Source: a virus. From it: a stretch of 31,832 nt of DNA. Made by a program: the position numbers and the translations under genes. Shown piece after piece: positions 12,343 through 16,688 of this stretch. Position 1 is the stretch's first letter, and every line of letters begins with the position of its first letter. The notes under the pieces are model-generated. The model was not told where the DNA came from. It did not search any database and worked only from the letters and a program-made list of their open reading frames with translations. The stretch is taken from the IMG/VR virus record IMGVR_UViG_3300042569_000569, positions 1 through 31,832 of that record. One strand, written 5' to 3'.

Positions 12343-12512
12343 TGCCAACTTATGAATACAAATGCTCTAAATGCGGTATGACTATGAGCGTTATTAGGGC
12401 TATAAAAGAAAAAGAAAGAAAACCTATTTGCGTGAATGACGCTCAAGAATTATCTCGGGTGTATGACGCACCGCCCGTCCACCTCAAGGGGAAAGGTTGG
12501 GGAAAAGATTAG
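12342..12512 (+). CDS. FmdB-like zinc ribbon protein with second knuckle decayed
   Basis: A 56-residue protein starting MPTYEYKCSKCGMTMSVIRA, the hallmark start of FmdB-type zinc ribbons. Normally a second C-x2-C follows before the R-V-x-x-x-P-x-x-x-F-K-G-x-G-F-Y tail. Here that pair reads C-V-N-D, while the tail is kept as RVYDAPPVHLKGKGWGKD. So one zinc ligand at least is lost and the fold may be unmetallated. The start overlaps the previous stop (TAATG). The 3' end overlaps the possible start region of the HNH nuclease gene. Role in the phage unknown. Confidence 0.75.
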   Translation: MPTYEYKCSKCGMTMSVIRAIKEKERKPICVNDAQELSRVYDAPPVHLKGKGWGKD

Positions 12513-12843
12513 TAAATTCCCTAAGCCTTGTCGTATCTGTGGGGTGTTGTCACCTGAACCGTTATGCGAACCACACCGAGCGCAAGCAAAAGCAATTCAC
12601 GAAGCGAGAAGAGCACAACGCAAAGCACAAACAGGGCAATATGGTGGGGATTACGCACGTCGAGCCAAGGCGGTCAGGGATTCGGCTGTTATTTGCCACA
12701 TATGCGGCGAAGGAAGAAAACAAAATGACCCATTTGAGGCTGACCATTACATACCCGCCGAGCAAGGCAGTCAAGCCACGTTGCTACCCGCCCATAGCAG
12801 CTGTAATAAGCGAAGGGGTAATAAACCCCTGCCCCTAAGGTGA
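12463..12843 (+). CDS. HNH endonuclease
   Basis: The protein has CRICG and PLCEPH near its start, a basic helix (HEARRAQRKAQTG), then CHICGEG, FEADHYIP, and LLPAHSSCNKRRGNK. C-x2-C, D-H, H-x2-C-N in this order is the HNH fold with an extra zinc knuckle. HNH proteins directly upstream of terminase genes are widespread and help cut DNA for packaging in HK97-like phages; here the ParB/ABC pair lies between it and the terminase. The start is uncertain: ATG 12463 (126 residues) and ATG 12436 (135 residues) are both in frame, neither with a good ribosome site. The end carries an inverted repeat (AGGGG/CCCCT at 12814-12830). Confidence 0.8.
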   Translation: MTHRPSTSRGKVGEKISKFPKPCRICGVLSPEPLCEPHRAQAKAIHEARRAQRKAQTGQYGGDYARRAKAVRDSAVICHICGEGRKQNDPFEADHYIPAEQGSQATLLPAHSSCNKRRGNKPLPLR

Positions 12844-12960: not shown

Positions 12961-12980
12961 GCGAAATTATTCGCTTTTTT
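12961..12980 (+). terminator. Short intrinsic terminator hairpin with T6
   Basis: GCGAA (12961-12965), loop ATTA, TTCGC (12970-12974), then TTTTTT (12975-12980). The stem is only 5 base pairs, so efficiency may be low, but the exact T run makes it a credible end for the operon that finishes with the HNH gene. A second short hairpin, GCCCG-CTA-CGGGC, lies at 12847-12859 just after that gene. Confidence 0.55.
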
Positions 12981-13012: not shown

Positions 13013-13540
13013 ATGAAAATCGAAACCCTACAAATCAAAGACCTGACACCTGACCCAGAAAACGCTAGGCAACACGACGAAAAGAACCTAAAGGCTATTC
13101 AAGGCTCGTTGAATCAGTTCGGGCAAAGAAAGCCCATTGTGATTACCGAAGCGGGAGTAATCGTTGCCGGAAATGGCACAGTCGAAGCTGCCAAGCGTTT
13201 GGGGTGGACAAAAATTGACGCGGTGAAAGTCCCCGTAGATTGGACACCCGAACAAATAAAAGCGTTTGCTTTGGCAGACAATCGCACCGCAGAATTAGCA
13301 AATTGGGATAAAGAAATCCTTGCGACTCAGTTGCTTGACCTTGAAGAAGCGGGGTTTGAAATTGCTGATTTTGGCTTCCTTCAAAAACAAGACTCAGACC
13401 AAAAAGAATTAGATACTGATTCCATTTCTTACGAAGACAAGTTTGAAGTTGTAATCGAATGTAAAGACGAATTTGAACAGCAAGACTTTTTGGAACGATT
13501 CACAAATGAAGGTCTAAAAGTCAGGGCAATAATCGTATGA
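13013..13540 (+). CDS. ParB-like N-terminal-domain protein
   Basis: A 175-residue protein. Residues 1-95 form a ParB/Srx-type domain: IKDLTPDPENARQHDEKNL, SLNQFGQRKPIVITEAG, VIVAGNGTVEAAKRLGW, and the family signature FALADNRTAELANWD. The usual GHxR motif reads GNGT here, as in many phage versions, so NTPase or nuclease activity cannot be assumed. Chromosome-type ParB proteins have an HTH domain next; this one does not. The C-terminal part (120-175) is an acidic linker and a ferredoxin-like segment (DKFEVVIECKDEFEQQDFLE). Phage ParB-like proteins of this class usually accompany DNA methyltransferases or other base-modifying enzymes. It overlaps the ABC-GNAT gene by 4 bases (ATGA). Confidence 0.85.
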   Translation: MKIETLQIKDLTPDPENARQHDEKNLKAIQGSLNQFGQRKPIVITEAGVIVAGNGTVEAAKRLGWTKIDAVKVPVDWTPEQIKAFALADNRTAELANWDKEILATQLLDLEEAGFEIADFGFLQKQDSDQKELDTDSISYEDKFEVVIECKDEFEQQDFLERFTNEGLKVRAIIV

Positions 13541-14670
13541 AAACAATTCTTCTTGAATCCAAGATTGACCGAAGCCCAAGGGTTATCCAACTTGAGGGAA
13601 TGTTTGACTTGCCTTTGGAAAAAGTTTCTAAAACCGAAATCCCCTTGAACATCCCGAACTTGTCGGAAAGAGAATGGAACGTCGGGCTAATTGTTGGGCC
13701 TTCTGGTTCAGGTAAATCCACAATCGCCAAAAACCTGTTCAACACGGAATTACAAAAGTCAGAAAATTTTGAATGGTCAGAAGACAAAGCAGTTATAGAT
13801 GATTTTCCTAAAGGTATGACAATCAAGGAAATCACCGAATTGTTGTCTTCAGTTGGGTTCAGTAGCCCGCCCGCTTGGTTGCGTCCTTATTCCACGTTGT
13901 CAAACGGAGAGCAATTCAGGGTTTCTATGGCGCGTGTAATGGCTGAGACCGTAGAAAATGAAATCGCGGTGGTTGACGAATTCACTTCTGTCATAGACAG
14001 GACCGTTGCCAAAATCGGTTCAGTCGCTATTGGCAAAACGATTAGGCGCAGAAATCAGAAATTCGTTGCTGTCGGGTGTCATTACGACATACAAGAATGG
14101 CTTCAGCCGGATTGGGTTTACGAACCTGCCACGGGCAATTTTCGTTGGGAGTATCTTCAACAAAGACCAGACGTTGAACTTACAATCTTTCGAGCAAACT
14201 ATGAAGCGTGGAATTCATTCAGTCGCCATCATTATTTGACAAAAGACCTGAATAAGTCAGCGCAAATTTATGTTGGATGTATTGACGGACAGCCCGCAGT
14301 TATGACGGCAATTCTCCCAATGGTTCACGGGTTTATAAAAGACGGTAAGCGCATTAGCAGAACTGTTGTATTGCCTGATTTTCAAGGGATAGGACTGGGC
14401 AACACTTTTGTAAATGCGATTTGTGGTGGATTGAAAGCACAAGGGTTTAGCGTTTACACAACCACTTCACACCCAGCGCGTATTAGGGCATTGAACAAAT
14501 CCAACCAATGGTCAATGATTAGAAAGCCTTCACGTGTTGCGAAACAAGGACCAAAGGCAAACAAAGGCTTGGTAAGTTCCGGTTCGCGCATTACAGCGTC
14601 TTTCCAATACGCGGGGGAAGCGAATGAGCAAGTCGCCAAGATACTTGCCCCGAAACCGATAAAGCAATAA
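13537..14670 (+). CDS. ABC-type ATPase fused to GNAT acetyltransferase-like domain
   Basis: A 377-residue two-domain protein. The ATPase part (residues 1-200) shows Walker A GPSGSGKST (54-62), the ABC signature LSNGEQ (121-126), Walker B AVVDEF (144-149) and a switch histidine in GCHYD (H182). It has no membrane segments and is not a transporter. The GNAT part (about 215-377) shows SRHHYLTKDLN, the strand IYVGCIDGQPAV, and VVLPDFQGIGLGNTF, whose Q-G-I-G-L-G is the coenzyme-binding turn. Coupled by ATGA to the ParB-like gene. GNAT-fold Mom of phage Mu modifies adenine in DNA, and ParB-like partners are typical of phage DNA-modification genes; hence an ATP-driven DNA-base modifier is a sensible hypothesis. 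Protein or small-molecule acetylation is the alternative. The substrate is unknown. Confidence 0.8.
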   Translation: MKTILLESKIDRSPRVIQLEGMFDLPLEKVSKTEIPLNIPNLSEREWNVGLIVGPSGSGKSTIAKNLFNTELQKSENFEWSEDKAVIDDFPKGMTIKEITELLSSVGFSSPPAWLRPYSTLSNGEQFRVSMARVMAETVENEIAVVDEFTSVIDRTVAKIGSVAIGKTIRRRNQKFVAVGCHYDIQEWLQPDWVYEPATGNFRWEYLQQRPDVELTIFRANYEAWNSFSRHHYLTKDLNKSAQIYVGCIDGQPAVMTAILPMVHGFIKDGKRISRTVVLPDFQGIGLGNTFVNAICGGLKAQGFSVYTTTSHPARIRALNKSNQWSMIRKPSRVAKQGPKANKGLVSSGSRITASFQYAGEANEQVAKILAPKPIKQ

Positions 14671-14673
14671 CAA

Positions 14674-14711
14674 GCCCCTTCAGGGGATTGGATAAAACAA
14701 AAAAATTTTTT
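14674..14711 (+). promoter_or_regulatory. Hairpin and A/T tract before the terminase genes
   Basis: CCCCTTCAGGGG (14675-14686) forms a 4 to 5 base-pair stem with a tiny loop. It is followed by GGATTGGATAAAAC, which loosely resembles the GGATT-x2-x3-TAGAAT region of the late promoters at 20692 and 26237, and by an A7T6 tract ending at 14711. TAAAAC (14693-14698) is 25 bases before ATG 14723. This might be a weak terminator plus a degenerate late promoter. Evidence is thin. Confidence 0.3.
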
Positions 14712-14722
14712 AAGGGAAGCAA

Positions 14723-15172
14723 ATGCCAGCAGGAAGACCGACAAAACCAATAGAACAAAAGCGACTAATTGGCAATCCCGGCAAGCGCGCCCTGCCCGAG
14801 CAATCGGCAATAATGCTGATTCCACAAGCAACAAAAACACCTGAACCCGCACGTCCACTTCTCAAATACGGGCAGGAACTTTGGGACAGGGTTTGGGAAT
14901 CGGGTATAAATTGGATTAGCCCAAATACAGATTTAGAAATCCTTCTTATGACTTGCGAAATGATTGACGAACGCTGGAATCTTCGAGTGCGTGTAATGAC
15001 AGACAACAATTCAAAAGACCGCCGAGGGTTGCGAGAAATTGACCGCCAAATAGTTTCAAACTTGGGTCTTTTGGGATTCACCCCGTCCGACCGTTCGCGC
15101 CTTGGAGTTGCTGAGGTAAAGAAAATGAGCAAATTGGAAGAGCTAATGGCGAAGAAGGCTAACCGTGAGTAG
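14723..15172 (+). CDS. terS: Terminase small subunit, P27 family
   Basis: A 149-residue protein. It begins with the P27-type signature MPAGRPTKPIEQKRLIGNPG, has a central helical part (YGQELWDRVWESGINWISPN, LLMTCEMIDERWNLR) and ends LGLLGFTPSDRSRLGVAEVK and KMSKLEELMAKKANRE. P27 small terminases bind the packaging start site and regulate the large subunit. The ribosome site AAGGGAAG lies before ATG 14723. Its end overlaps the GTG start of the large subunit by 8 bases, as usual for this pair. Confidence 0.9.
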   Translation: MPAGRPTKPIEQKRLIGNPGKRALPEQSAIMLIPQATKTPEPARPLLKYGQELWDRVWESGINWISPNTDLEILLMTCEMIDERWNLRVRVMTDNNSKDRRGLREIDRQIVSNLGLLGFTPSDRSRLGVAEVKKMSKLEELMAKKANRE

Positions 15173-16688
15173 CTGGCCTCCATTATGGCTCACGCCAGTT
15201 TCACAAACCGCTATCGAACAAGGCGACGGTGAAGTGGTAATTGAATTTTCCGAAACGTTCGGGACAATCGGCAAGGACGGAATCGCCGGAAAAGTAGGCG
15301 ACGCGCTAAAGCTACGCGATTGGCAAAAAGAACTAATTCGGCACGTTTACGCTCGGGACGAACACGGTGGGCTAATCGCACGGACAGCCCTTATAGGGCA
15401 ACCGCGTAAAAATGGCAAGAGCGCGCTGTCTTCCATTAGCTTTGCTCTTTATTCTTTATTGGCTGAAGGTGTGGACGGTGGAGAAGTTTATTCAATCGCA
15501 GCAGAAAAAGAACAAGCGCGAATCGTATTTGGTGAAGCTAAAAGAATTGTTGAATCCACAGAGTTGTCTGAAATGGTTAAGGTTTATCGAGACGCGCTAT
15601 TTGTTCCAGCAACTAATTCTGTTTACAGGGTTTTATCTGCCGAAGCGTATTCCAAAGAAGGTTATAACCCTCACCGAGTAATTGCTGACGAACTTCACGC
15701 GCACAAAGACCGCTCACTTTTTGACGTTATGAGCTTGGCTATGGGAAACCGAGGAAGTATTGCTCAACTTATAGCGGTGACAACTGCCGGAGTAAAAAAG
15801 GATATGACTGGCGGGGATTCAATTGCTTACAATTTGTTTCAATACGGACAAAAAGTTTCGCGCGGAGAAGTTATTGACCCGTCTTTTTTTATGGCGTGGT
15901 GGGCGGCACCAGACGACGCAGACCACCGTGACCCGAAAATTTGGGAACAGGCAAATCCGGGTTTTGACGATTTAGTAGATTCGGCAGACTTTGAAAGCGC
16001 AATCAAGCGCACACCTGAAGCTGAATTTAGAACCAAACGGTTGAACCAATGGGTATCTTCTCAAACAGCTTGGTTGCCCGCCGGAAGCTGGGATGAATTA
16101 CAAACAGAACGTGAGATTAGCCCAGACGACGAAATTATCTTAGGTTTTGACGGCTCATTTTCAGGCGATTGTACTGTTCTTGTTGCCTGTTCGATTCCTA
16201 AAAACGAAGAAGAAAAACCGTTTCTTTGGTTGGTAAAAGAATGGGAAAAAGACCTTACAATCCACGATGACCAATGGCGAGTAGACATTCAAGAAGTTGA
16301 GGAAACAATTTTGAATTTTATGCGCGATTACCCAAAAACCCGTGAAGTAGCCTGTGACCCTTTTCGCTGGCAACGGTCTATGGAAGTTTTAGCAGACCGC
16401 GGTGTGCCAATTGTTGAATGGCCCAGCACTTCGCCAAAAAGAATGGTTCAAGCGTGCGCTAAGTTCTACGACGCAGTAACTGGGGCAACATTAGAACACG
16501 ACGGAAGCCCAGTTTTAGCGCGTCATTTAGACAACGCAGTTACTAAAATTGACAACTTGGGAATTCGAATTGTAAAAGAAAATCGTTATTCACCGCGAAA
16601 GATTGACGCAGCGGTAGCGGCAGTAATCGCCTTCGATAGAGCAGTTAGCAGTAGAATAGAAGAAATGGTTCCCGACTTCTTTTTCTAA
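15165..16688 (+). CDS. terL: Terminase large subunit (ATPase and nuclease)
   Basis: A 507-residue protein from GTG 15165. The packaging ATPase has the adenine/Walker A region GQPRKNGKSALSS (80-86 as PRKNGKS) and Walker B VIADEL (172-177), followed by the coupling motif TTAG. The RNase-H-like nuclease has three acidic strands: LGFDGSFSGD with D329, VACDPFRWQ with D398, and KIDAAVAAVIAFDRA with D481. Its length and motif order fit HK97-type large terminases of the P27-linked class. The ATPase drives DNA into the prohead through the portal and the nuclease makes the end cuts. A late-promoter-like motif lies inside its last codons (16651-16661). Confidence 0.95.
   Translation: MSSWPPLWLTPVSQTAIEQGDGEVVIEFSETFGTIGKDGIAGKVGDALKLRDWQKELIRHVYARDEHGGLIARTALIGQPRKNGKSALSSISFALYSLLAEGVDGGEVYSIAAEKEQARIVFGEAKRIVESTELSEMVKVYRDALFVPATNSVYRVLSAEAYSKEGYNPHRVIADELHAHKDRSLFDVMSLAMGNRGSIAQLIAVTTAGVKKDMTGGDSIAYNLFQYGQKVSRGEVIDPSFFMAWWAAPDDADHRDPKIWEQANPGFDDLVDSADFESAIKRTPEAEFRTKRLNQWVSSQTAWLPAGSWDELQTEREISPDDEIILGFDGSFSGDCTVLVACSIPKNEEEKPFLWLVKEWEKDLTIHDDQWRVDIQEVEETILNFMRDYPKTREVACDPFRWQRSMEVLADRGVPIVEWPSTSPKRMVQACAKFYDAVTGATLEHDGSPVLARHLDNAVTKIDNLGIRIVKENRYSPRKIDAAVAAVIAFDRAVSSRIEEMVPDFFF
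16651..16661 (+). promoter_or_regulatory. Late-type promoter motif inside the end of terL
   Basis: GTAGAATAGAA matches the late motif exactly at every position, with the hexamer TAGAAT at 16652-16657. It lies 46 bases before the small membrane-protein start (16697) and about 170 bases before the portal gene. It is inside coding sequence (codons for S-R-I-E-E), so it may be chance, but its location at the terminase/portal boundary fits a late promoter for the head genes. Confidence 0.4.

Follow-up and report, generated by a model that had tools for sequence, protein, structure and literature searches.

The ParB-like protein and the ABC-ATPase/GNAT fusion encoded beside the terminase of this phage probably form an exchangeable DNA-modification cassette that acylates phage DNA. 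This reading is based on gene context and is given a probability of about three in four; the two-gene module itself is real and widespread, and is a member of a predicted family. The window, which is the whole stretch of DNA analysed, is a virus contig of 31.8 kb. Its terminase has its closest match in Pontimonas phage phiPsal1 (61%), which makes an aquatic actinobacterium the probable host. The gene pair and its flanks are organised as follows:

12436..12843, plus strand: HNH endonuclease gene, upstream flank outside the cassette, kept in relatives
13013-13540, plus strand: ParB-like gene, ORF of 175 aa
13013..13378, plus strand: ParB/Srx N-terminal domain, codons 1-122 (phrog_620, E 1.7e-41; ParB_N, E 7e-5)
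13379..13540, plus strand: ParB linker and C-terminal beta-alpha-beta tail (tail profile), which varies with the partner enzyme
13537-14670, plus strand: ABC-ATPase/GNAT fusion gene, ORF of 377 aa
13537..14148, plus strand: ABC ATPase domain, residues 1-204 of the fusion, with every motif intact
14146..14670, plus strand: GNAT acyltransferase domain, residues 204-377, with an HHYL motif and the acyl-CoA loop PDFQGIGLG
14671..14722, plus strand: cassette boundary; conserved DNA restarts at 14671 in 10/10 relatives
14723-15172, plus strand: TerS (Pfam), flank outside the cassette
15165-16688, plus strand: TerL (Pfam), flank outside the cassette

The two genes overlap by ATGA at 13537-13540 and stand beside the terminase genes (TerS from 14723 and TerL from 15165 by Pfam), as the earlier note had described. 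The promoter that it took both genes to share was not recovered, since a sigma-70 scan upstream returned none and did not rise above shuffled expectation. A terminator-like hairpin at 12961-12974, GCGAAATTATTCGC and then TTTTTT (12961-12980), precedes the ParB gene and is not above shuffled expectation either.

The fusion is a full-length member of phrog_11143 (residues 4-365, E 1e-108) and is therefore not a chance ORF; the ABC-GNAT family extends over 351 viral stretches, with 386 in bacterial genomes. Its ABC ATPase carries a Walker A motif (GPSGSGKS, residues 54-61), an ABC signature (LSNGEQ, residues 121-126), a Walker B motif (VVDE, residues 145-148) and the switch histidine His182, and its GNAT part contains the canonical acyl-CoA loop QGxGxG (residues 283-288). 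Across about 105 non-redundant homologues K60, S122, G124, D147, E148 and H182 are invariant, and because the ABC motifs and the acyl-CoA loop are all invariant or nearly so, both halves of the fusion should be active. AlphaFold2 models the fusion with high confidence (pLDDT 91.5 overall, 92.0 when the GNAT domain is modelled by itself), the ABC ATPase coming first and the GNAT domain second. PDB structures matching these models are ABC ATPases (Z up to 14.6) and GNATs (Z up to 13.7). The matches listed for the whole model are filled by ABC ATPases, and the GNAT domain alone retrieves generic GNATs, the nearest being RimI and Naa50. By motif and fold this GNAT is of the canonical acyl-CoA type. 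No membrane domain occurs in the fusion protein, its model or the cassette; motifs, models and Pfam thus agree with the earlier description of a complete ABC ATPase joined to a GNAT without a membrane part. An ABC transporter was rejected, as there is no membrane-spanning domain or partner and the neighbours are ParB and TerS. PADLOC matches to mad3/mad8 and others were also set aside, their coverage being mainly of the ABC motifs.

ABC ATPase and GNAT are separate ORFs in pT24 and in the P335, Oenococcus, Javan141, Javan523 and MismyG phages (split loci L407, L409, L410, L163, L408 and L374, from lactic-acid-bacteria and streptococcal phages and pT24). In several records the ParB at such loci is annotated as a 'DNA modification methylase' and is only a ParB. 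For the break in the Streptococcus prophage L163, a frameshift in a CCCCC tract was considered and rejected in favour of an old gene split, because lactococcal phage P335 and the Oenococcus phage have the same 225-aa ABC gene and a separate, overlapping GNAT gene.

DNA acylation by ABC-GNATs has already been predicted in print, and what is new here is context evidence much stronger than that found in print. PMC7824862 cites an earlier prediction (Iyer et al. 2013) that a GNAT paired with an ABC ATPase puts an acyl modification, as yet uncharacterised, on a DNA base, and names Tenacibaculum phage pT24 as a carrier of the predicted pair. No experimental test of the prediction was found in the open-access literature. 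The pT24 pair has the same two domains (39% identity across 99% of the length of the window protein) and the same predicted role, but ABC and GNAT are separate genes and have no recognisable ParB neighbour.

Mom of phage Mu (PF25680, PDB 8bv8) is likewise a member of the GNAT superfamily that acts in phage DNA modification, but it has neither an ABC ATPase nor the QGxGxG acyl-CoA loop. The likeness of the GNAT part to Mom that the earlier note had proposed does not amount to significant sequence kinship: PF25680 is absent among the best 25 Pfam matches listed for the window protein (E<=0.1), and hhalign comparisons of the window GNAT with Mom alignments of 6 and of about 87 sequences gave P 0.024 and 0.075, which are not significant. 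A home-made Mom profile weakly matches a distant Leptospira relative only, and the structure 8bv8 is not among the matches listed in the GNAT fold search, in which GNAT folds are all alike. The tRNA(Met) cytidine acetyltransferase TmcA (PDB 2zpa) pairs an ATPase with a GNAT on tRNA and acetylates a nucleobase amine; it resembles the fusion in joining the two activities but differs in its helicase-type ATPase and its tRNA substrate. TmcA is among the Foldseek matches listed for the window GNAT (E 7.7e-6), no better than generic GNATs.

The ParB-like protein matches phrog_620, and its sole Pfam domain in 175 aa is ParB_N, which lies under Pfam's cut-off. Beyond this N-terminal domain, features of a partition ParB were not seen: Pfam detects no HTH centromere-binding part, and there is no ParA beside the gene, whose neighbours are the HNH and ABC-GNAT genes. 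The pairing noticed earlier at this single locus is almost obligatory. The survey covered 161 loci with homologues, drawn from bacterial genomes as well as viral contigs; of the 156 with enough upstream sequence, 147 carry a ParB-like gene immediately upstream of ABC-GNAT. In nearly all the remaining loci a ParB stands no more than a few kb away or forms a single ORF with ABC-GNAT (L112). Some members of the family from jumbo phages (pT24, PX29) lack a recognisable ParB neighbour. Many of the bacterial loci are prophage-like. At L070:5456-8401 one ABC-GNAT is surrounded by three ParB-like genes.

The C-terminal tail of the ParB switches with the partner enzyme. A profile of the tail matches all ABC-GNAT-linked ParBs (98/98, this being its training set) and none of 77 Mom-linked ones; in the slot survey described below it finds 5/5 ABC-GNAT-linked ParBs and 0/86 others. 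Because tail type matches the linked enzyme, we infer that the tail docks its partner. Mom-linked ParBs instead end in a CPxC knuckle (77/77; 14/16 in the slot survey). ParBs before Mom or C5 methyltransferases (L203-L282, L302-L304, L349-L351) mostly carry this knuckle at their end, and a Mom-specific CPxC tail was rejected since C5-methyltransferase-linked ParBs have it too and two Mom loci lack it. The knuckle recalls Com, the zinc-binding protein encoded in front of mom in phage Mu. A search with the EastWest ParB as query gave no matches.

The slot between ParB and terminase provides strong context evidence on function. The closest relatives of the window ParB were collected and their neighbours classified; in the first lineage (41 loci, L283-L323), whose nearest loci show 81-89% identity in the ParB N-domain, most loci carry fused N6/N4 methyltransferases between ParB and TerS/TerL, five carry Mom and four a C5 methyltransferase with a second methyltransferase. 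More distant ParBs precede a TET-associated glycosyltransferase (TAGT), or Tet/JBP with an amino acid:DNA transferase, and a second ParB lineage (L324-L373) follows the same pattern of cargo exchange. The 91 loci of both lineages comprise 49 with N6/N4 methyltransferases (a number with which the Pfam count agrees), 16 with Mom, 7 with C5 methyltransferases, 7 with TAGT, 3 with Tet/JBP, 5 with ABC-GNAT, one unknown and 3 truncated; several unrelated enzyme classes are represented, and as many of the contigs are close relatives the counts overstate independent events.

The borders of the exchanged segment are sharp. The ParB N-domain (codons 1-122) is 76-89% identical in the nearest relatives, the upstream HNH endonuclease gene is 67-82% identical in the nearest ones, and between the window and near relatives whose cargo differs TerS/TerL identity is mostly about 91-97%. 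DNA homology to the window ends inside the ParB gene, at 13299-13378 in the 10 loci compared, and restarts in all ten exactly at 14671, the base after the fusion stop codon. The ParB-DNA methyltransferase fusions of phrog_498 are close counterparts, having a ParB N-domain up to 89% identical and lying before the same TerS/TerL, but there a SAM-dependent methyltransferase is fused to ParB whereas ABC-GNAT is separate here. The combination of a common ParB N-domain with an interchangeable tail and enzyme suggests a general platform for the exchange of phage DNA chemistry.

Three further slot contents were observed. A histidine-phosphatase/cytidylyltransferase fusion lies between ParB and the TET-associated glycosyltransferase at L329:4746-5702 and possibly makes an activated sugar for that enzyme. 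At L336:1422-2258 ParB and a Tet/JBP oxygenase are separated by a 278-aa protein that has no Pfam match and may be a new modification enzyme. The survey's one unclassified case, L357:3-800, has a slot-family ParB whose tail is of a different type, and no cargo was recognised.

ABC-GNAT has also been exchanged in named phages. The Arthrobacter phages Sonny and EastWest have orthologous flanks on both sides (up to 80% identity) and ParB N-domains that are 57% identical, and the ParB is followed by Mom in Sonny and by ABC-GNAT in EastWest. A ParB-like gene precedes Mom in many phages, directly so in 77/77 Mom loci with room. In the genus Sourvirus, Sour has the order ParB, DpdA, QueC, QueD, QueE, FolE and terminase, and Gordonia phage BiggityBass and NHagos have ParB, ABC-GNAT, a formyltransferase and terminase; over the aligned parts the ParBs of Sour and BiggityBass are 62% and the terminases 78% identical. 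ParB and ABC-GNAT are also present in the Gordonia phages Axumite and Fresco. The Mycobacterium phage Ares, a rosebushvirus, has the gene order of Sour. The phage 7-deazaguanine system (DpdA, QueC/D/E, FolE; PMC6884629) thus occupies the same ParB-to-terminase slot in Sourvirus sisters and Rosebush-type phages, but it works by guanine transglycosylation and has no acyltransferase. The Mom and deazaguanine exchanges for ABC-GNAT are independent swaps. Sister phages, whose host strains are laboratory Gordonia, therefore differ in the modification enzyme held in one slot, and the pathway of one alternative has a measured product: DNA of Rosebush, from a related phage group, contains dPreQ0 at about 28% of guanines by LC-MS (PMC6884629). 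The gene between ABC-GNAT and terminase in BiggityBass, gp3 (L377:1823-2473; also L379:1826-2473), is annotated as a 'tRNA-methyltransferase', whereas it matched a formyltransferase here (PF00551, E 7e-10).

Because its relatives carry known DNA-modifying enzymes in this slot, the window acyltransferase most likely modifies the phage's own DNA, and the slot swaps lend strong support to the earlier proposal that ParB and ABC-GNAT form a DNA-modification system protecting phage DNA. The best-placed alternative, though an improbable one, is that ABC-GNAT acylates a protein such as ParB, the terminase, host RNA polymerase or a defence protein, in a slot that collects anti-defence or takeover genes. 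By fold the GNAT sits among acetyltransferases of proteins and of small molecules, the closest solved folds being the N-terminal protein acetyltransferases RimI and Naa50, and the phage GNAT Rac acetylates RNA polymerase, as quoted in a passage of PMC7824862. The earlier note had held that grouping with such enzymes would speak against DNA modification; the grouping is indeed present at the level of fold, but a shared fold does not determine the substrate. Against a protein substrate, 82 of the 83 classifiable slot cargoes other than ABC-GNAT are DNA-base-modifying enzymes and none modifies proteins, the ParB tail is matched to the enzyme, and Mom or deazaguanine synthesis replaces ABC-GNAT in two further lineages. 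A role of the pair in marking DNA or readying it for packaging with the adjacent terminase, as had also been suggested, is very unlikely: the gene most often found downstream of ABC-GNAT is a terminase, from one of several unrelated families, but the same TerS/TerL (mostly about 93% identical) serves methyltransferases or Mom in its place, and the EastWest and Jace modules lie among other genes, away from TerL. It is just as improbable that the enzyme works ahead of polymerisation, acylating a small molecule or free nucleotides, with an ATPase that does not act on DNA, for although GNATs with small-molecule substrates are common and the donor-making genes PanD and CoA-transferase constitute a small-molecule pathway, the exchanged enzymes (MTase, Mom, TGT) mostly act on polymerised DNA and a metabolite GNAT needs no ABC ATPase.

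In the DNA-modification reading, the GNAT domain would transfer an acyl group from acyl-CoA to the exocyclic amine of a base in phage DNA. The fused ABC ATPase may dimerise on DNA and spend ATP on duplex opening or on turnover, a role modelled on the helicase part of TmcA that serves its GNAT, in which case it would open or grip DNA. The common N-domain of the ParB-like protein would handle DNA or nucleotides and its matched C-terminal tail would dock the enzyme. As ABC-GNAT exchanges with known protective modifications, the modified phage DNA would be expected to evade host restriction. If the product is confirmed, an ATP-coupled, acyl-CoA-dependent route would join the known routes of DNA modification.

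The nature of the acyl group is hinted at by genes adjoining ABC-GNAT in other phages. In Rhodococcus phage Jace, ABC-GNAT is followed by genes for an aspartate decarboxylase (PanD) and for a CoA-transferase III that is short. Asp D133 of the latter, presumably the catalytic Asp of this family, does not vary across four homologues. Used as a query, this CoA-transferase III recovered 25 viral loci, all with ABC-GNAT just upstream and 22 with PanD in between. The viral operon ParB, ABC-GNAT, PanD and CoA-transferase III is found at L382-L406 (e.g. L387:318-2990), and a second ABC-GNAT follows the CoA-transferase III at L387-L392 and L394. Adjacency of PanD and CoA-transferase III to ABC-GNAT suggests beta-alanyl-CoA as the donor in these phages: PanD would convert aspartate to beta-alanine, the CoA-transferase would form beta-alanyl-CoA and ABC-GNAT would pass the group to a DNA base. 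The operon thus names a candidate group, beta-alanyl, and with it a mass that can be searched for. The PanD/CoA-transferase-linked ABC-GNATs fall almost wholly into one clade of the tree (support 99) from which the window protein is excluded, and its donor may therefore differ; since the cassette holds no donor-making genes, the window phage probably draws on a host acyl-CoA, e.g. acetyl-CoA. It is tentatively proposed, at somewhat less than even odds, that ABC-GNATs give rise to DNA of a new class, acylated or aminoacylated, with beta-alanyl groups in the PanD clade and, in the window sibling, another acyl group taken from a host-supplied acyl-CoA.

Other enzymes are encoded directly behind ABC-GNAT in single cases: an AdoMet decarboxylase at L005:4840-5214, where ABC-GNAT is 65% identical to the window protein, a type I CoA-transferase at L022:4708-5274 and a hexapeptide protein at L017:1909-2382. 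These are possibly other suppliers of acyl groups or tailoring enzymes.
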